Below are positions 875 to 14,346 of a DNA stretch of 64,000 bases, in pieces; the first letter of the stretch is position 1, and the number at the start of each line of letters is the position of its first letter. The stretch covers positions 1,240,001 to 1,304,000 of the forward strand of contig NC_011832.1 of assembly GCF_000021965.1 (NCBI RefSeq), written 5' to 3'. The translations under genes were made by a program, and so were the position numbers. Source of the DNA: Methanosphaerula palustris E1-9c (GTDB lineage Archaea > Halobacteriota > Methanomicrobia > Methanomicrobiales > Methanospirillaceae). The notes under the pieces are model-generated. The model did no database searches, had not been told where the DNA came from, and saw only the letters and a list, made by a program, of their open reading frames with translations.

Positions 875-5021
<4,147 letters not shown>

Positions 5022-5038
5022 AATACATCTCTCCTGAA

Positions 5039-5107
5039 TGTCTAGAATGAGAATTGAACTCATCATCTGATTTAAGATTAGAGGCAAGGCCTCTCTGCCA
5101 TCCAGGT
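5039..5107 (-). other. Degenerate tRNA-like element in the SepCysS leader
   Basis: On the minus strand the leader contains a perfect T-arm (stem ATGAG/CTCAT, loop TTCAATT, bases 5047-5063). It is followed by a 7-base acceptor-like strand TCTAGAC plus A. Upstream are a D-arm-like GCAGAGAGGCCTTGC and an anticodon-like arm TCTAA-TCTTAAA-TCAGA. The matching 5' strand ACCTGGA (5101-5107) pairs at 5 of 7 positions. The variable region is only 2 bases and position 33 is C, so it is unlikely to be a working tRNA. The element ends 17 bases before the SepCysS start. It could be a tRNA relic or a tRNA-mimic regulatory leader; chance resemblance is not excluded. Confidence 0.3.
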
Positions 5108-5126
5108 GACTCAACCAATCATGTGT

Positions 5127-5277: not shown

Positions 5278-5904
5278 CTAACTCTGGATGGAAAGGGTAG
5301 TGAGAGCCTCGATAGCATCGAGCCTCTTCTGATCTTCACCGTTCTTCTGGACAAATGAAAGAAAAGCTTCCCCCGACTCTCCCGATCCGGCGATGATTGA
5401 GGCATACGTTCTATCCGGGAAGTACATCCCCCGTCCGCAGGCGAGAATTGCTGCAGCTGCCTCCGGGAGCAGGATCCCAGCTTTTACTGCCAGATCCAGG
5501 TTGTGCCTGATGTTCACGAGGGGTTCAGAGAGATGAAGGTAGGTCTCTGGATCATAGATCAGCGCGACCTCATCATCTGAGACCACGATTCCATCCCGAT
5601 AGAGCCGGTAGACCTCGCCGATGCCGATCATCCCGAAGGTGTCGAGTTCGGAAGCTCGGAGAGCACCCATACTTGAAGCTCCAATCACCGTCGTCCCCAG
5701 TTTGATCGCAGCGAGAACCTCCCGGTGGCCGACCGAGCAATCCTGAAAGAAGACCCCGTCGATCAGCACGATCGTCTTGGCCCCTTCCTTTGCGGCCTGC
5801 AGCAGGTCACCGCGCCTGGCCGGTGGCCTGTACTCGGCGTCGAGGATAGCCCTGGCCGTGGTCAGATCAAGACTCGGTCCGAGAAAGACGATGATGTCGT
5901 GCAT
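5278..5904 (-). CDS. tfuA: TfuA-like protein, partner of YcaO
   Basis: The start MHDIIVFLGPSLDL is the usual TfuA N-terminus, so I chose ATG 5904 over the longer frame starting at 5952. The protein has 208 residues. Characteristic stretches are LIDGVFFQ, GASSMGALRASEL and GIGEVYRLYRDG. TfuA is thought to deliver sulfur to YcaO; in Methanosarcina the ycaO-tfuA pair is needed for thioglycine in methyl-coenzyme M reductase McrA. It overlaps the 3' end of ycaO by 38 bases, so translation is probably coupled. It is the last gene of the nadA-ycaO-tfuA unit. Confidence 0.88.
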   Translation of the reverse strand: MHDIIVFLGPSLDLTTARAILDAEYRPPARRGDLLQAAKEGAKTIVLIDGVFFQDCSVGHREVLAAIKLGTTVIGASSMGALRASELDTFGMIGIGEVYRLYRDGIVVSDDEVALIYDPETYLHLSEPLVNIRHNLDLAVKAGILLPEAAAAILACGRGMYFPDRTYASIIAGSGESGEAFLSFVQKNGEDQKRLDAIEALTTLSIQS

Positions 5905-7078
5905 GTCTGCACCGTTCTCCGCGTCGTTCATTATCCATAGCATAGGTCTCAAGCCCTGGTACCACGACCCTGACCACGTTCACACCGGTTTCAGGTCGGG
6001 TGAGGTCGCTTACGATAACACGATCCAGCCCGACTGCTGCAAGTCGATCGGTCACCACCCTGATATCGTCGAGGAAGTCCTCGGTATCACAACTCGTAAG
6101 TGCTGCGTAAGGGACTGTGCTCTTCCCTTCGTACCAGTAGCGGTTCAATCGTTTGACCCGATCATACCCGATCGAACGGCGTTCGTCGGCTTCGGTGGTA
6201 TCCTCGCGGGCGCCATGGATCTGGGTGACCCTGCTCTGCGCCACTTCAGTCAACGCCCGCAGTGTAGCAATCGCGGCAGAGGTGTGTGTCCCCATCCCGA
6301 GAGTCAGGAGACGGGGATCTCTGAGCACCGGATCGTCTGATGCGGCAGCGATCGTTGGGATCCCGATATCGCTGGTCAGGTCGTGGAGGACGATATCGAC
6401 CCCCGCCGTAGAGAAAGCGTCGAGGAGCGAGCAGGCGGTCGGATCGGTCACATCGGTGATGACCGGTCCGGTGTCATGCAGCACCTCTGCGATCGACCAG
6501 GCATCCCGCTCTATGATCTCAGCCAGGGCATGGAAGGTGGCCTCTTCAAGGGTATTCCCTGAGGCGATGCCGTTGGTACTGGTCCGAAAGAGGGGTGCCG
6601 CCCCCTGTGGCAATGGGTGGAAGACCGCGTGAGCAGGAAGGAGCACCTCCTCATGCTGGACGATATCAAACCCCTTCACCCAGGAAAGCACCCGGTCTGG
6701 GTCGGCATCGTTGGGAAGGATGAGGTCACGTGGGTCGACAACGTTTCCCTGCCTGGCAAGGGAGTCATAGGTTCCCGTGATCAGGGGCCGGTCATGTACC
6801 TCAGCAGAGTACCGCTCGATCCCCTCCATGATGGCAGAGACCCTTGCAGCGATTGGCGTTGCTCCTTTGCCGTTGTAAACCGAGATCGCCCCGTCTGCCG
6901 CTGCAGGACGCATACATGAGAACACCGGGATCCCGATCCGATCGAGACCCGTGATATCGGCGACCCGAGTGATCCCGGTCGTCGGGAGCAACCGCTCGAT
7001 CCGTTCGAGCGTTATTGCAGGGTCAACCGCACGCTGAGTCTCATTCCGGTATCCCTTCCTGCACGAACTGAGTTCCAT
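5867..7078 (-). CDS. ycaO: YcaO domain protein (peptide thioamidation)
   Basis: This 403-residue YcaO protein has the family's ATP-site stretches: ISVYNGKGATPIAARVSAIMEGIERYSAE in the first third, SNGIASGNTLEEATFHALAEIIERDAW-type sequence in the middle and ALTEVAQSR later. YcaO enzymes phosphorylate a backbone amide with ATP. Next to a TfuA gene they install a thioamide, in methanogens on McrA. The N-terminal residues (MELSSCRKGYRNE) are variable and the start is less certain. It lies 11 bases after nadA and overlaps tfuA. Some YcaO proteins make azolines instead, but the TfuA neighbour favours thioamidation. Confidence 0.9.
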   Translation of the reverse strand: MELSSCRKGYRNETQRAVDPAITLERIERLLPTTGITRVADITGLDRIGIPVFSCMRPAAADGAISVYNGKGATPIAARVSAIMEGIERYSAEVHDRPLITGTYDSLARQGNVVDPRDLILPNDADPDRVLSWVKGFDIVQHEEVLLPAHAVFHPLPQGAAPLFRTSTNGIASGNTLEEATFHALAEIIERDAWSIAEVLHDTGPVITDVTDPTACSLLDAFSTAGVDIVLHDLTSDIGIPTIAAASDDPVLRDPRLLTLGMGTHTSAAIATLRALTEVAQSRVTQIHGAREDTTEADERRSIGYDRVKRLNRYWYEGKSTVPYAALTSCDTEDFLDDIRVVTDRLAAVGLDRVIVSDLTRPETGVNVVRVVVPGLETYAMDNERRGERCRHARHHRLSRTES

Positions 7079-7089
7079 GCGCCTTTCAC

Positions 7090-7959
7090 CTAGGAGACCG
7101 CAAGCATCCGCTCGAGTGCTCTGCGTGCCCCTTCCGCGATCACCGGGTCCACCTGGACGATTGGTGCCTTTGCCCTGATCGCCGCCTCAATCTTCTCAAC
7201 GGTGATCATCTTCATATCTGCACAGCTGAGTAAGGGTGAGGCTGCCACAAAAATCTTGTCCGGCGACTCCTTCTTCAGGCGGGTCAGCATCCCCACCTCG
7301 GTGCCGACAATGATCACCTTCGCCGTGGTTGTCTTTGCATGCCGGGCCATCGCAGAGGTCGAGCCGATGAAGTTGGCGACATCCTGCACCTCGGGGATCG
7401 TTTCTGGGTGCACGATCACCTCTGCACCCGGGTACTCGGCGAGTCTGTCCTGGATGTCCTGCACGGTCAGGGAATGGTGGACCGGGCAGCATCCGAGTGC
7501 TGGCACCGGGATCACCTGTTTATCGGTGTTACGTGCGACATAGAGGGCGAGGTTCCGGTCTGGTGTGAATATTATCTGCTTCTCTTCCAGACTGTTCACC
7601 ACCTTCACTGCATTCGCAGAAGTGCAGATGATATCGGAGACTGCCTTGACCGCTGCAGAACTGTTCACATAGGTGACAACCGCTGCTTTGGGATAGTCCT
7701 TGCGTGCCGCCAGGATCATCTCGGGGGTGACCCTGCTCGCCATCGCGCACATCGAAAACGGTTCGGGGTGGATCACCTTCTTGGATGGATTGACGATCGC
7801 GGCCATCTCTGCCATGAAATCGACACCTGCAAAGATCAGGTACTCGGTGGTGACTAATTTTGCTTTCTGTGCCAGTTCAAGACTGTCGCCGACAAAGTCT
7901 GCCATCGCCTGAACCTCGGGCCGCACGTAATTGTGGGCGAGGATAGTGAAATCTTTCAT
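7090..7959 (-). CDS. nadA: Quinolinate synthase NadA
   Basis: NadA condenses iminoaspartate with dihydroxyacetone phosphate to quinolinate, the NAD precursor. The 289 residues match the short archaeal form. The N-terminal ILAHNY motif, HPEPFSMCAMAS (Cys71), PALGCCPVHH (Cys157/158) and SPLLSCADM supply the three expected [4Fe-4S] ligands. It is the first gene of an operon with ycaO and tfuA, with an 11-base gap to ycaO. A palindrome at 7985-7996 sits 26 bases upstream of its ATG, where the transcription start is expected. No NadB or NadC gene lies nearby, so its place in a sulfur cluster is odd; it needs an iron-sulfur cluster. Confidence 0.92.
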   Translation of the reverse strand: MKDFTILAHNYVRPEVQAMADFVGDSLELAQKAKLVTTEYLIFAGVDFMAEMAAIVNPSKKVIHPEPFSMCAMASRVTPEMILAARKDYPKAAVVTYVNSSAAVKAVSDIICTSANAVKVVNSLEEKQIIFTPDRNLALYVARNTDKQVIPVPALGCCPVHHSLTVQDIQDRLAEYPGAEVIVHPETIPEVQDVANFIGSTSAMARHAKTTTAKVIIVGTEVGMLTRLKKESPDKIFVAASPLLSCADMKMITVEKIEAAIRAKAPIVQVDPVIAEGARRALERMLAVS

Positions 7960-7996: not shown

Positions 7997-8038
7997 AGTT
8001 AGTTTAATGTAGTGGGACGATTTAAAAGTTATCATAAT

Positions 8039-8362
8039 ATGGTCAAAGCACCCTGTCAGGAGGTTGTCTGGGAACTGCTCCCTGCGATCAGAGCTGCGCT
8101 TGCAGCAGAACTGGTGAGACGGGGAATGTCGCAGCTGGCTGCATCCAGGGTCCTCGGGATGGCGCCGTCGGCAGTATCTCAATATCTCTCAAAGAAGAGG
8201 GGATACCGGATCGAATTCGAAGGAGAGGTAAAGCAGACGATCGAGCACCTGGCTGAGGATATCAATCAGGGGAAGATCGAAGACGTATCAGCAGCATTCT
8301 GTGATATTTGCAGGTTGATCCGGAAGGACCAGGGTCCCTGTCAGAAAAAACCCAATGATTAA
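8039..8362 (+). CDS. Small HTH (XRE-type) regulator with four cysteines
   Basis: The protein has 107 residues from ATG 8039; a GTG at 8012 would add nine. Residues 25-55 form a helix-turn-helix (GMSQLAASRVLGMAPSAVSQYLS) like that of the archaeal COG2522 regulators. Cysteines lie at 6, 88, 91 (CDIC) and 101 and could hold an iron-sulfur cluster or zinc, or sense redox state or sulfur (inference). The gene heads an operon with the LarE-like, desulfurase and FdhD genes (27-base gap to the next). Its promoter carries the palindrome shared with the SepCysS and cysK promoters. It is the best local candidate for the regulator of the sulfur island. Confidence 0.8.
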   Translation: MVKAPCQEVVWELLPAIRAALAAELVRRGMSQLAASRVLGMAPSAVSQYLSKKRGYRIEFEGEVKQTIEHLAEDINQGKIEDVSAAFCDICRLIRKDQGPCQKKPND

Positions 8363-8389: not shown

Positions 8390-9187
8390 ATGGAATATAT
8401 CACAGAGTTATCGGCACTGAAGGATGTGATCAGAGCACGCGGTTCATTGTTGATCGCGTTCTCCGGTGGGGTGGACAGCAGCCTGCTGGCGGTGATTGCC
8501 CGTGAAGTCCTGAGGGATCGGATGAACTGCGTCCTGCTCGACAGTCCCCTGTTGCCGCGAAGAAGTTATCGGGAGGCGATTGCACTCGCCGGGGAGTATG
8601 ACCTTCCCCTGACCGTTCTCTCCTTCTCTCTGCTCTCAAGGGATGATATTCTGAGGAACTCCCGGGATCGCTGTTACTTCTGCAAGAAGGGAACGGCAGA
8701 ACTCTTCCACAATGAACTGGTACGGCTTGGTTTCTCTGGGGTTGCGGATGGCGTGAACCTGTCCGATTATGGGGAGCACCGGCCTGGTTTGATCGCCTGC
8801 GAGGAGGAAGGGATTCTCCATCCATTTGTCGAGGCCGGCATCACCAAGCCGATGATCCGGGCGATCGCACGGTCGATGAGCCTTTCCTTCTGGAACAAGC
8901 CTTCGGCGGCCTGCCTGGCCTCGCGGCTCCCGTATGGTGACGAGATCACGCCGGAACGTCTGCATATGATTGAGGTGGCCGAGGACGCTCTCTTTGATCT
9001 GGGATACCAGGGTTTTCGGGTGCGCATGCATGGCACCATTGCCCGGGTTGAGATGAGGAGGGATCTGATGGAACAGGCCTTTAAAGACCGTGATGCGATC
9101 CTGGCGGCTCTTAAATCTGCGGGTTTCCGGTACTGTACACTCGATCTGGAGGGATACCGGACGGGTTCAATGGATGAGGTGCTATGA
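8390..9187 (+). CDS. larE: LarE-like ATP-dependent sulfur transferase
   Basis: This 265-residue PP-loop protein has LLIAFSGGVDSSLLA near the N-terminus, CYFCKK (Cys95, Cys98) and PSAACLASRLPYGDEIT (Cys175). LarE of Lactobacillus gives up the sulfur of the cysteine matching Cys175 to the nickel-pincer cofactor. Homologues with three cysteines instead hold a [4Fe-4S] cluster that relays sulfur, and this protein has the three-cysteine pattern. No LarB, LarC or LarA is present in the window, so lactate racemase maturation is doubtful. It overlaps the desulfurase gene by 4 bases, which suggests a sulfur relay from the desulfurase. Confidence 0.85.
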   Translation: MEYITELSALKDVIRARGSLLIAFSGGVDSSLLAVIAREVLRDRMNCVLLDSPLLPRRSYREAIALAGEYDLPLTVLSFSLLSRDDILRNSRDRCYFCKKGTAELFHNELVRLGFSGVADGVNLSDYGEHRPGLIACEEEGILHPFVEAGITKPMIRAIARSMSLSFWNKPSAACLASRLPYGDEITPERLHMIEVAEDALFDLGYQGFRVRMHGTIARVEMRRDLMEQAFKDRDAILAALKSAGFRYCTLDLEGYRTGSMDEVL

Positions 9188-10365
9188 AACTCGAACTGGC
9201 ACGGGAGGACTTCCCGCTCTTTGCTGATGTCACCTACATGGACAGCGCTTCGATCAGCCTGACGCCGGTCCAGGTGGTGGAGGCGGTCACGGACTACGAC
9301 CTTCACTACCGGGCCAATGTTGGTCGGGGTGTTCATCGGCTCGCACAGATCGCTTCGCTCAAGTACAACGAAGCGCACCGGAAGGTCGCCGGTTTCATCG
9401 ATGGGGGGCAGGGGATCACGGCGTTCGTTCAGAACACCACGGCAGCGGTGAACATGGTCGCTGCCGGTTTCCCCTGGAAGCGAGGCGATCATGTGGTCAC
9501 CACTCTTCTCGAACACCACTCCAACCTGCTCCCCTGGATTCGGCTCCGTGAGCAGGGAGTTTTGGTGACGGTGGTTCCCCCCGGTCCGGATGGAACGATC
9601 AGTCCGGCCTCGATCGAGGCCGCGATGACCCCGGCAACCAGGCTGGTCGCCGTGACCCACGCCTCCAACGCCCTCGGCACAATCGTGCCGATAGAGCAGA
9701 TCGCAGCGATCTGCCATGCCCATGGAGCACTGCTGCTGGTGGACGGGGCCCAGACTGTTCCTCATCTCCCGGTCAGTGTGCAGGCACTCGACTGTGACAT
9801 CCTCTGCTTCTCCGGGCACAAGATGCTCGGACCGACCGGAACTGGGGTGCTCTGGATGAAGGATATCTACATCCGGCCGTCGGTGCTCGGCGGCGGGATG
9901 GTCGAGACTGCAACCACGAATGGGTTCACCCCGGTGCAGGGGTACCGGCAGTTTGAGGCGGGCACTCCGAACATCTCTGGCGCGATCGGCCTCTCTACGG
10001 CAGTCAGTTACCTTGAAGAGATCGGGATGGCGGCTGTTCGAGTCCATGAGCAGACACTGACACGGCGGCTGGTCGACGGCCTCCGGGGGCTTGGGGGGGT
10101 GACGGTCTATGGGCCGGAACGGGCGGAGGACCGGATCGGCGTGGTCTCGTTCACGGTTGACGGTGTCCACCCCCACGACGTGGCGCATATCCTCGATGAG
10201 GCATCCGGCGTGCTGGTCAGATCTGGCCATCACTGCTGCATGCCCCTGATGCAGGCTCTCGACGCCCCGGATGGTACGGTTCGGGCGAGTCTGTACCTGT
10301 ACAACAGCATTGAGGATGTCGACCTGCTGATAGCGACCGTCGAGGAACTGGAACGGAGACAGTGA
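9184..10365 (+). CDS. Cysteine desulfurase, SufS/CsdA-type class V aminotransferase
   Basis: The 393 residues are of usual SufS length. Visible motifs are TYMDSASISLTP at the N-terminus, TTLLEHHSNLLPW, the PLP lysine in CFSGHKMLGPTGTG, and a C-terminal cysteine loop RSGHHCCMPLM, where one Cys would carry the persulfide. It would release sulfur from cysteine as a protein-bound persulfide. Its 4-base overlaps with the LarE-like gene upstream and fdhD downstream place it as the sulfur source for both. It could also serve iron-sulfur assembly, but no SufBC is near. Confidence 0.88.
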   Translation: MKLELAREDFPLFADVTYMDSASISLTPVQVVEAVTDYDLHYRANVGRGVHRLAQIASLKYNEAHRKVAGFIDGGQGITAFVQNTTAAVNMVAAGFPWKRGDHVVTTLLEHHSNLLPWIRLREQGVLVTVVPPGPDGTISPASIEAAMTPATRLVAVTHASNALGTIVPIEQIAAICHAHGALLLVDGAQTVPHLPVSVQALDCDILCFSGHKMLGPTGTGVLWMKDIYIRPSVLGGGMVETATTNGFTPVQGYRQFEAGTPNISGAIGLSTAVSYLEEIGMAAVRVHEQTLTRRLVDGLRGLGGVTVYGPERAEDRIGVVSFTVDGVHPHDVAHILDEASGVLVRSGHHCCMPLMQALDAPDGTVRASLYLYNSIEDVDLLIATVEELERRQ

Positions 10366-11150
10366 TGATGTATAAGGAGATCCCCTGTATCAAGAAGAAC
10401 GGTGATGAGTATACGGCTTCAATGCACCCGGTCGTCGAGGAGGTGCCGGTTGCCCTGTTTGTGAACGGCAGGCATGCGGCGACGGTGATGACCAGTCCGA
10501 CGATGCTGAAGGAACTGATCGTTGGGTTTCTGCTGACCGAAGGGGTCATCAAATCGCTCGACGAGATCGAGGCGCTCTCTGTCGACGATGATCGGGCCGA
10601 GGTGCTGACGAAGAACCCGTACAAGATCCTCTTCTCGAAGAAGACGGTGCTGAGCGGGTGCGGGGGCTCGTCATCGTTCCTCGACATGAAAAAACTTCCG
10701 AAGATCCAATCAGACCTGACGGTGACCCCAGCACAGGTCTCAACCGGGCTCAAGGCGGTGCTGAATTCACCGCTGCATATGCTGACCGGCGGAGTGCATG
10801 TGGTCGGTCTGATCCAGGGGGATCACCATCTTGCGATCGTCGAGGATATCGGGCGGCACAACGCGCTCGATCGGGTGATCGGGTACGCAGCGCTGAACGG
10901 GATCGATCTCTCGCAGACGTTTGTCGTCTGCACCGGCAGGATCTCTTCAGAGATGGCACGCAAATGTCTGATCGCGAACATTCCGATCATCGTCTCGCGT
11001 GGGGCGACGACGACGCTCGCGGTGGAGATCGCCAGGGCCGGCGGACTGACGGTGATCGGTTTTGTCAGGAGCGATAAGATGAATATCTACTCCGGGGAGG
11101 AGCGGGTGAGCGGGGCCGGTTCACTGGAGATTCCCGCGCCTGTCGAGTAG
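10365..11150 (+). CDS. fdhD: FdhD, sulfur carrier for formate dehydrogenase
   Basis: FdhD passes sulfur from a cysteine desulfurase to the molybdenum or tungsten cofactor of formate dehydrogenase. The family motifs SGCGG, VEDIGRHNALDRVIGYA and CTGRISSEMARKC are clear. The usual CxxC is reduced to a single Cys in LSGCGGSSS, as the second position is Ser. I prefer ATG 10365 (a GGAG lies 6 bases upstream); GTG 10362 and ATG 10368 are alternatives. The start overlaps the desulfurase stop. No formate dehydrogenase gene is in the window. The 3' end overlaps the convergent TtuA-like gene by 30 bases. Confidence 0.9.
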   Translation: MMYKEIPCIKKNGDEYTASMHPVVEEVPVALFVNGRHAATVMTSPTMLKELIVGFLLTEGVIKSLDEIEALSVDDDRAEVLTKNPYKILFSKKTVLSGCGGSSSFLDMKKLPKIQSDLTVTPAQVSTGLKAVLNSPLHMLTGGVHVVGLIQGDHHLAIVEDIGRHNALDRVIGYAALNGIDLSQTFVVCTGRISSEMARKCLIANIPIIVSRGATTTLAVEIARAGGLTVIGFVRSDKMNIYSGEERVSGAGSLEIPAPVE

Positions 11151-12035
11151 ATCTTCTATTTTGCAGCGCTGGCAGATGGTGCCGGAGCAGGGCGCCCCAC
11201 AGCGGTCGCACTTCGACAACGCCGATGGTGGAACCATACCGCTGACCGTTCGTTTCAGGTCTGCCTCTCCTTCCACGATTCGAAGCATGGTACCGGGGAA
11301 CCGATACTCAAGTACCCCGAGTGCACGCCGCACCTCGGCCCTGAGGGCATGGGCCGTGTACGGGCACTCCGGAAGGGGTGAGAGGAGCGATGCGACCATT
11401 CCATACACGACCACCTCCTTCTCGCTGACCCGTCCGAGCGGTTTGATCCGCGGAATGTACCCGGTCCCCTCCGGCAGGGTGCCGGCGATCCGGGTGAGGT
11501 CTCCGCGCAGGTAATTCATCAGAACCGACTGGGCCTCGTCGTCCAGACAGTGGCCGGTCGCGAGGACACCCGCCCCTGCCTCCACGGCAGTCTGCTGCAG
11601 TGCCTGTCGCCGGTAGACTCCGCAGACAGAACAGGCCCGTTCCCTGTTTCCGATCAGCAGGCTATCGAGGTCGGCTCCGAAGAGATCCTGAAACGAGACG
11701 ATGATATGCCGGATCCCGAGCCTGTGGGTCAGGCGCCGTGCCGCTGCCAGTGTCTCATCGCGATAGTCTCTGATCCCTTCGTCGACGGTGATGGCGACCA
11801 GGCGGTCTGCAGCCCTCTTCCCGAGCAGCATGTTCATAAGCCAGAGCAGCACCGTGCTGTCCTTGCCGCCGCTGAGCGCGACTGCTATCCGTTCGTTATC
11901 TGCAAGGGTGTATGAGGCGAGCATGCCGGCAGTCTTCGCCTCCACCTTCTCCATCAGGTGTGCTCCACAGAGGTGCGCCCCATCTCCCCGGGAGAAGTAG
12001 ACCGCGTGCTCGTTGCAGCGATCGCAGGCGATCAT
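11121..12035 (-). CDS. TtuA/NcsA-like tRNA 2-thiolation enzyme
   Basis: This 304-residue PP-loop protein starts with a zinc finger (CDRCNEHAV, LCGAHL). It has the ATP loop ALSGGKDSTVLLW, the cysteines of SVCGVYRR and TGHCLDDEAQ that normally hold a catalytic iron-sulfur cluster, and a C-terminal zinc finger (CDRCGAPCSG, CQRCKIED). This layout is that of the TtuA/Ncs6 group, which 2-thiolates uridine in tRNA using a ubiquitin-like sulfur carrier. The carrier-like gene lies directly upstream with no gap. Which tRNA position is modified, U34 or U54, cannot be told. Confidence 0.88.
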   Translation of the reverse strand: MIACDRCNEHAVYFSRGDGAHLCGAHLMEKVEAKTAGMLASYTLADNERIAVALSGGKDSTVLLWLMNMLLGKRAADRLVAITVDEGIRDYRDETLAAARRLTHRLGIRHIIVSFQDLFGADLDSLLIGNRERACSVCGVYRRQALQQTAVEAGAGVLATGHCLDDEAQSVLMNYLRGDLTRIAGTLPEGTGYIPRIKPLGRVSEKEVVVYGMVASLLSPLPECPYTAHALRAEVRRALGVLEYRFPGTMLRIVEGEADLKRTVSGMVPPSALSKCDRCGAPCSGTICQRCKIEDLLDRRGNLQ

Positions 12036-12433: not shown

Positions 12434-13363
12434 ATGGGAAAAATTTACAACAACATCACAGAGACCATCGGGCACACCCCGTTGGTCAGGTTGAACCGGC
12501 TGACCGAGGGGATACCGGCAGAGATCGTCGTCAAGGTGGAGTCATTCAACCCGATGTCGAGTGTCAAGGATCGGATCGGGTTAGCGATGATCGAGGCGGC
12601 GGAGCAGCACGGTCTGATTGGGAAAAATACGACGATCGTCGAGCCGACCAGTGGAAACACCGGCGTAGGACTGGCTTTCGTTGCAGCAGCACGCGGATAT
12701 AAGATCCGGCTTCTGATGCCCGATACGATGACCATCGAACGGAGGAAACTCCTCAAAGCACTCGGGGCAGAACTGGTCCTGACCCCAGGCAAGGATGGGA
12801 TGAAGGGAGCAGTCAGCGCTGCAGAGGCGATGGTCGCAGAGAACCCGGACCTGCTGTATATCCCTCAGCAGTTTCGAAACCCATCGAATCCTGCCATTCA
12901 TCGGAGAACCACTGCCGAAGAGATCTGGACAGATACCGATGGAAAGGTGGATATCGTTGTGGCCGGCGTCGGGACTGGTGGGACGATCACCGGTATTGCA
13001 GAGGCTATCAAGGCCAAAAAACCGGAATTCAAGGCAATTGCCGTTGAGCCGGCGACGTCCCCGGTCCTCTCAGGAGGAAGTCCTGGACCGCATAAGATCC
13101 AGGGGATCGGTGCCGGGTTCATCCCGGATGTGTTGAGGATGGACCTGCTCGACGAGATTGTTCCGGTCAGCAACGAGGATGCGTATGAGATAGCCCGGCG
13201 TCTCGCCAGGGAGGAGGGGATCCTGGCAGGGATCTCATCTGGTGCAGCCCTCTATGCGGCTCTGCTGATCGCAAAACGCCCGGAAAACAGTGAAAAAATG
13301 ATCGTGGTGATCCTCCCGGACACTGGTGAGCGGTACCTCTCCACCGATCTCTTTGATGCATAA
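12434..13363 (+). CDS. cysK: Cysteine synthase CysK (O-acetylserine sulfhydrylase)
   Basis: The 309 residues match CysK. The PLP lysine is in [11 protein letters not shown], the substrate loop is [10 protein letters not shown], the phosphate-binding loop is [10 protein letters not shown], and [10 protein letters not shown] is near the end. It makes cysteine from O-acetylserine and sulfide. AGAGG lies 8 bases before the ATG. It heads an operon with the CysE-MIP18 fusion 12 bases downstream. With SepCysS in the same window, the organism has two routes to cysteine. Confidence 0.95.
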
Positions 13364-13374
13364 GTGACCTGATC

Positions 13375-14346
13375 ATGCTCCTCAAACACCTCAGGGAAGA
13401 TATCCAGACCATCTTTCAGAAGGACCCGGCAGCCCGATCGATACCGGAGGTGCTCTTCTGTTACCCCGGGTTGCATGCAATCTGGAGTCATCGGATCGCT
13501 CACTGGTTATGGGTCCACCATCTCTTCTTTGCAGGACGGTTTGTATCGCATATCGGTCGGTTTTTGACCGGGATTGAAATCCATCCCGGGGCAATGATCG
13601 GTCGTCGGGTCTTCATTGACCATGGCATGGGTGTCGTGATCGGGGAGACGGCTGAGGTTGGGGATGATGTCCTGATCTATATGGGGGTCGTGCTTGGTGG
13701 GACTGCGCTGGTGAACGAGAAACGTCATCCGACCGTTGAGGATCATGTGATCATCGGTTCAGGGGCCTCGGTGCTCGGTCCGATCACCATCGGAAGCGGG
13801 GCTAAGGTCGGGGCCGGTTCGGTCGTGGTTCGGTCGGTACCCCCAGGGGCAACGGTCGTCGGGGTTCCCGGCAGGATTGCCGGGCCCGAGTGTAACCAGG
13901 ATAGAGATGGGGACCTGGAGGCACCGATGCCGGATCCGATGCTTCGGGTGATCTCCAGGCTGCTCGATCGGCAGAACCAGTTCGAGGAGCGGATCCGGAT
14001 CATGGAACAGGTGATCCCTGGGCCGCTTGGTCTGGAGAAGCGGGCCGAACTGGAGATGGAGGAGCAGATCAGAGACGCGCTCCGCGAGGTGATCGACCCG
14101 GAGGTTGGAATTGATATCGTCGACCTCGGGCTGCTCCGAGATGTGCATGTCACCGCGGACGGGCGTGCAGAGATCGATATGGTGTTGACGACGAAGGGCT
14201 GCCCGTTGGTCGATTACCTGAGCCAGCAGGTTCGGCGGAAGGCCGAGGGGATCCCCGGGATCTCCTCGGTTGATGTGAGGGTGCTGGACGAACCCTGGGA
14301 CTGGAGCAGGTTCGTCCGTCAGAACGGGCAGCTGAAAAAGGTATAG
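13375..14346 (+). CDS. cysE: Serine O-acetyltransferase CysE fused to a MIP18 (DUF59) domain
   Basis: Residues 1 to about 175 are a CysE left-handed beta-helix acyltransferase: [52 protein letters not shown] and [13 protein letters not shown]. After a linker, residues from about 225 to 310 are a MIP18/DUF59 domain ([29 protein letters not shown]), as in SufT and iron-sulfur assembly factors. CysE makes O-acetylserine for CysK. The fusion suggests a link between cysteine supply and iron-sulfur cluster assembly (inference). One continuous frame with no internal start signal supports a true fusion. CysK often binds the CysE C-terminus, which here is replaced. Confidence 0.88.

Follow-up and report, generated by a model that had tools for sequence, protein, structure and literature searches.

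The 64-kb stretch of DNA analyzed here (the window) lies in the single-contig, 2,922,917 bp genome of Methanosphaerula palustris E1-9c and contains an operon in which the genes for LarE, a cysteine desulfurase and FdhD overlap one another, preceded by a gene for a helix-turn-helix (HTH) protein. FdhD is the sulfurtransferase for enzymes with molybdenum/tungsten bis-pyranopterin guanine dinucleotide (Mo/W-bisPGD) cofactors. We tentatively read this as a four-gene sulfur-delivery operon, in which one desulfurase would feed two clients, FdhD and a genuine LarE, a proposal that we regard as close to an even call. Among the loci compared, a cysteine in the FdhD loop predicts an adjacent sulfur donor almost perfectly, and the LarE of this operon keeps the residues of the enzymes that make the nickel-pincer cofactor.

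A preliminary description had proposed an overlapping operon of three genes, and these open reading frames are confirmed, with family profiles in agreement (Table 1). The LarE and desulfurase genes share the four bases ATGA (9184–9187), and the desulfurase and FdhD genes share GTGA (10362–10365), or a single base if FdhD begins at the ATG at 10365. What had been missed is the HTH gene, located 27 bp upstream of LarE on the same strand, which is probably part of the operon and its first gene. No Pfam or NCBIfam model matched the HTH protein above cut-off (HTH_3 only at E=9e-4). Its four cysteines, arranged as PCQ, CxxC and a last Cys, are kept in the homologues, one of which stands ahead of LarE in most archaeal loci, and the protein is therefore likely an Fe-S or metal sensor, probably a regulator responding to Fe-S, metal or sulfur status. 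The protein is also conserved upstream of IscS-like genes, as of LarE, in several archaeal orders.

Table 1. Genes of the operon and its surroundings (window coordinates).
Feature	Position	Strand	Evidence or remark
HTH protein with four conserved cysteines	8012..8362	+	116 aa from GTG 8012, or 107 aa from ATG 8039
LarE, PP-loop ATP pyrophosphatase sulfurtransferase, [4Fe-4S] (non-sacrificial) type	8390..9187	+	TIGR00268 284 bits
SufS/CsdA-like cysteine desulfurase	9184..10365	+	PF00266 395 bits
FdhD, sulfurtransferase for Mo/W-bisPGD enzymes	10362..11150	+	TIGR00129 208 bits, PF02634 243 bits
NadA (quinolinate synthase), divergent neighbor outside the operon	7090..7959	-	PF02445 E=4e-102
NcsA/TtuA-like tRNA thiolation protein, convergent with fdhD; context	11121..12035	-	TIGR00269 81 bits (above cut-off)
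TfuA, McrA-glycine thioamidation partner; context	5278-5952	-	TfuA/YcaO pair: NF033432 266 bits and TIGR03266 480 bits, both above cut-off
YcaO, McrA-glycine thioamidation partner; context	5867-7078	-	Pair scores as for TfuA

The window LarE matches its family profile over residues 7–261, i.e., the full length (cut-off 150 bits), and carries the PP-loop motif SGGVDS at residues 25–30. It matches the L. plantarum LarE structure 5udq (E=1e-40) and also PDB 8cnz (E=4e-17), annotated as a PP-loop 'NAD_synthase domain-containing protein', which we take to be possibly an archaeal LarE. The three-cysteine pattern suspected of holding a [4Fe-4S] cluster is indeed present as Cys95, Cys98 and Cys175, the equivalents of the three cysteines that bind [4Fe-4S] in Thermotoga maritima LarE, where IscS supplies the sulfane sulfur (PMC9283937). 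Binding of the phosphate of pyridinium-3,5-biscarboxylic acid mononucleotide (P2CMN) involves Ser180, Arg212 and Arg214 in the L. plantarum enzyme (PMC9283937), which align with Ser178, Arg210 and Arg212 of the window LarE. An alignment of 139 homologues, some linked to FdhD, some to LarB/LarC and others to none of these, shows no variation at the three cysteines, Glu198, Arg210 or Arg212, and either Ser or Thr at position 178. Judged from this alignment, the FdhD-linked LarEs retain all the tested catalytic and substrate residues of nickel-pincer enzymes.

This bears on the earlier suggestion that the LarE of the operon, being without LarB or LarC, does not build the nickel-pincer cofactor. 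The two partners are missing from the locus only. Genome-wide, LarB (2341007–2341642, 231 bits) and LarC (290385–290879, 175 bits) are both encoded above cut-off and unlinked to the operon, as is a second LarE (1181005–1181781, 53% identical). Their presence elsewhere, which the preliminary description had named as evidence that would count against its view, extends to the relatives: LarC scored above cut-off in 41/41 and LarB was found in 20/21, the sole miss being an 89%-complete assembly in 510 contigs. That the operon lacks LarB and LarC is therefore uninformative on the pathway, and the argument that the window LarE has left it fails. A single LarE (TIGR00268 over cut-off) was present in 16 of 20 genomes tested, and in 12 of these 16 it was the FdhD-linked one.

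LarB, LarC and LarE are nearly universal in Methanomicrobiales, and LarA (PF09861) was found neither in this genome nor in any of the 120 genomes of the order searched, by a search that detected it in both positive controls, T. maritima and Methanosarcina acetivorans. The pathway seems to be retained without LarA, its only known user, so that in a whole methanogen order carrying the synthesis genes the product would have some other user. Weak PF09861 hits did occur in relatives; two of them (L021 and L022), once translated, read as ferredoxin-containing DUF362-type proteins and were rejected as LarA. DUF362 and the DUF2088 of LarA are grouped in one Pfam clan (PMC11770544).

The linkage of LarE with FdhD and the desulfurase, proposed from the single locus, is conserved far beyond M. 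palustris. Neighbors were called by BLAST against markers within 2.5 kb, and some loci had flanks of 1.5 kb, so the links counted are lower bounds. Within Methanomicrobiales, FdhD is encoded within 1.5 kb of LarE and on the same strand in 20 of 61 sampled loci, in addition to the window (families f1, f3, f5, and f6), and the SufS-like desulfurase stands between the two in about half of the FdhD-linked loci. By our own estimate, assuming some two FdhD genes per 2.4-Mb genome, such proximity would arise by chance in ~0.1% of cases, and random placement would yield well below one case against the ~20 genomes of the order, and several further families, in which the two genes are together; the linkage is real and beyond chance. 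Outside the order the exact row HTH-LarE-desulfurase-FdhD is found in ANME-1/Methanophagales and Methanosaeta (Methanothrix) as well as in families f10 and f21, and LarE-desulfurase-FdhD also in family f18, so that the absence of any such link in other genomes, which would have spoken against the partnership, is not what we see. Divergent from LarE, the Methanomicrobiales frequently carry IscS/IscU-MoeB-MoaD-MoaE, with YcaO-TfuA further out. In a quick maximum-likelihood (ML) tree the methanogen-type archaeal LarEs group together (71 rows; Shimodaira-Hasegawa-like approximate likelihood ratio test, SH-aLRT, 95), with the FdhD link scattered among these in 10 changes. Bacterial LarE loci carried LarB/LarC (22 of them), and FdhD occurred in none of those sampled. 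In several genomes of the Methanomicrobiales, a gene for a radical-SAM protein is repeatedly found close to the desulfurase-FdhD pair (e.g., L116:6616-7611; a cluster of nine loci), and a distant LarE class of ~32% identity is found beside SepCysS and a ThiI-like gene.

The desulfurase translation contains the PLP-lysine (pyridoxal phosphate) motif SGHK and the active-site cysteine motif RSGHHC. It reaches 400 bits against the SufS family TIGR01979, below the cut-off of 475, and on this score is SufS-like and not classed as SufS. FdhD, above the TIGR00129 cut-off of 140.9, has a loop cysteine, Cys100 (SGCGG), aligned with the essential Cys121 of E. coli, and Ser103 replaces Cys124 (structures 2pw9 and 4pde aligned). 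It is through Cys121 that E. coli FdhD passes on sulfur from IscS to Mo-bisPGD (PMC10609526). A second FdhD of the genome, at 1558902, shares the SGCGG loop and stands immediately after a 908-aa fusion of PAPS_reduct and Aminotran_5 domains, i.e., a PP-loop protein of the 3'-phosphoadenosine-5'-phosphosulfate (PAPS) reductase type joined to a cysteine desulfurase; fusion and FdhD together span 1556120–1559591. Comparable fusions adjoin FdhD in other genomes (loci L123, L100, L165, L180, L271, and L297). At genome positions 264408–264701 there is also a fragment of a third FdhD, apparently a broken gene, with an open frame of 107 aa that corresponds to the C-terminal half.

When 92 non-redundant FdhDs were sorted by their loop, two kinds became evident. 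A donor gene, defined as LarE, a SufS-like desulfurase or a PAPS-reductase(-desulfurase) within 2.5 kb, adjoins 50 of the 51 FdhDs with SGCG, whereas none of the 41 without it has one; the strict SGCG count leaves out one protein (L290) with the loop SGGGCG. In loci retrieved via FdhD and not via LarE the figures are 19/20 and 0/40, and the association is therefore not an artefact of locus choice. The SGCG FdhDs form one clade (SH-aLRT 100, quick tree), with a single change of the loop along the tree. Inside this clade the kind of donor switches at least nine times, and the persistence of some donor through this turnover speaks for function.

Formate dehydrogenase as the destination of the sulfur, as suggested earlier, now looks doubtful. 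The genome holds two fdhA genes (226922 and 571614), both remote from the FdhD of the operon, as well as two fwdB-type genes. Within 2.5 kb, fdhA adjoins five FdhDs in the comparison, all lacking SGCG, and no SGCG FdhD (p=0.013 for the whole set; p=0.15 for the FdhD-only set). The only SGCG FdhD without a donor (locus L159, genome G107) follows fwdA and fwdC, genes of formylmethanofuran dehydrogenase, and faces a MoeA-like gene. This one locus, together with the kinship between formylmethanofuran dehydrogenase and formate dehydrogenase, suggests the former as a possible target.

From gene order, conservation, residues and genomic co-location, all observed here, we infer for M. palustris both sulfur transfers, the target enzyme and the regulation as follows. 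The desulfurase would take sulfur from cysteine as a persulfide and load it on Cys100 of FdhD, which would hand it to the Mo/W-bisPGD cofactor of an enzyme of the formate dehydrogenase family, perhaps formylmethanofuran dehydrogenase. The same desulfurase would load the [4Fe-4S] cluster of LarE with a non-core sulfide, and LarE, acting together with LarB and LarC from their unlinked loci, would thiolate the precursor of the nickel-pincer cofactor, to the benefit of some user that is not LarA. Fe-S or sulfur status would probably be sensed by the HTH protein.

Several points weigh against this scheme. Formylmethanofuran dehydrogenase is indicated by only one locus, and the absence of LarA from 120/120 genomes leaves the product of LarB, LarC and LarE without a known user. 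Since the SGCG FdhDs are one clade, their 51 cases are not independent events. At 13 of the 51 loci LarE is present and no SufS-like desulfurase is adjacent (in eight of the 13 an IscS-like gene lies no more than 2.5 kb away), and a plain transfer from desulfurase to FdhD would not need LarE there. Finally, the exchange of LarE for PAPS-reductase-type proteins beside FdhD suggests that the PP-loop protein may in its own right be of importance to FdhD.

These last two points bring in the alternative that LarE is a relay, passing the sulfide of a [4Fe-5S] cluster, or sulfur activated by ATP, either to Cys100 or to the Mo/W cofactor bound by FdhD, outside nickel-pincer synthesis. We consider it unlikely, if still a serious competitor. 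It would explain why LarE is the sole one of the three donor genes at those 13 SGCG loci, frequently with a 4-base overlap, why an unrelated PP-loop protein holds the same place, including beside the second FdhD of this genome, and why the identity of the donor changes while some donor remains. Close LarE and SGCG-FdhD also co-occur above chance in the 120 genomes (odds ratio 4.9, p=2e-4, kinship uncorrected), 32 having both, 31 close LarE only, 10 SGCG-FdhD only and 47 neither. The same counts can be turned against a relay, as SGCG-FdhD is absent from 31 of the 63 genomes with LarE and 10 genomes have it without close LarE; in addition, LarE retains the P2CMN phosphate-binding residues and all catalytic residues, and known FdhD requires no ATP-dependent partner. 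The stronger form, in which the LarE of methanogens would be reserved for FdhD as its ATP/[4Fe-5S] sulfur donor and the PAPS-reductase-type PP-loop proteins would be analogues of LarE, we find doubtful, although if true these donors would be a new PP-loop-driven route for sulfurating archaeal Mo/W-bisPGD cofactors. We prefer one desulfurase with two clients because LarE keeps the nickel-pincer substrate residues, LarB and LarC accompany it, and LarE and SGCG-FdhD often occur separately.

It is improbable that there is no functional partnership at all and that the adjacency of LarE and FdhD is a by-product of sulfur and Fe-S genes drifting together in methanogens. The window is certainly rich in sulfur genes (SepCysS, YcaO-TfuA, CysK, CysE, and NcsA), and the linkage is patchy on the LarE tree, both of which favor drift. 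Against it stand the 4-base overlaps, a gene order common to lineages far apart, and the almost complete correspondence of the FdhD loop cysteine with an adjacent donor. Very improbable, too, is a role of LarE in giving the dithiolene sulfur of molybdopterin by thiocarboxylating MoaD with MoeB, so that LarE and FdhD would serve separate sulfur-requiring steps in the making of a single Mo/W cofactor: many methanogen loci do have a MoeB-MoaD-MoaE cluster divergent from LarE, with MoaE and the MoaD/ThiS fold confirmed there by Pfam, but the moeB-moaD-moaE genes of this genome lie at ~1350–1352 kb, 100 kb away, MoaD is already activated by MoeB without need of an ATP-using LarE, and the LarE active site is of the P2CMN-enzyme type.

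The component families of the operon are known and, as far as the open literature searched here shows, the LarE-desulfurase-FdhD combination is undescribed; our search of that literature found no paper combining LarE and FdhD. The [4Fe-4S] LarE of T. maritima (PMC9283937) has in common with the window protein the PP-loop, the CxxC...C pattern, the P2CMN-binding Ser/Arg/Arg and the capacity, in its case, to be fed by a desulfurase, but the window LarE is encoded with desulfurase and FdhD instead of larA/B/C, in an order without LarA. Bacterial lar operons (LarE-LarB-LarC) share the LarE family and residues and differ in their gene content, as seen in the survey. The E. coli relay of IscS, FdhD and formate dehydrogenase (PMC10609526) also pairs a desulfurase with an FdhD that has a loop cysteine at the Cys121 position, whereas the archaeal FdhD described here has one loop cysteine and not two, is co-encoded with both desulfurase and LarE, and has no adjacent fdhA. 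The Cys-less FdhD of Methanococcus maripaludis, for which a 2023 review asked if other partners deliver inorganic sulfur (PMC10609526), is of the same family, and Cys-less paralogues are also present in Methanomicrobiales; these have no adjacent donors, in contrast to the window FdhD. The operon offers concrete candidates for the sulfur source of archaeal FdhD, namely the SufS-like desulfurase, LarE and the PAPS-reductase/desulfurase fusion, and its recurrence provides a testable answer to how archaeal formate-type W/Mo enzymes obtain their essential sulfur. Both this source and the LarA-independent user of the nickel-pincer cofactor could be tested in cultured methanogens.

The gene content of this genome (YcaO/TfuA for McrA, SepCysS, formylmethanofuran dehydrogenase) is of the methanogen type. 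NadA acts on the route to nicotinic acid adenine dinucleotide (NaAD), from which the nickel-pincer cofactor is made, and a NadA homologue is divergent to HTH-LarE in ANME-1 as well. On the other side of the operon, the NcsA/TtuA-like protein scores 207 bits against the NCBIfam NcsA model, below cut-off, and in the neighbor tables its gene frequently adjoins Cys-type fdhD in relatives. The YcaO/TfuA pair is another sulfur-using module frequently near LarE in relatives. Elsewhere in the window, a SepCysS-like protein (3642–5114) with ~90 extra N-terminal residues adjoins MetX-CBS and O-acetylhomoserine sulfhydrylase, in a neighborhood shared by the tRNA-dependent and O-acetylserine routes to cysteine, and CysK (12434–13363) adjoins a CysE (serine acetyltransferase, 13375–14346) that is fused to a C-terminal MIP18/SufT-like domain.

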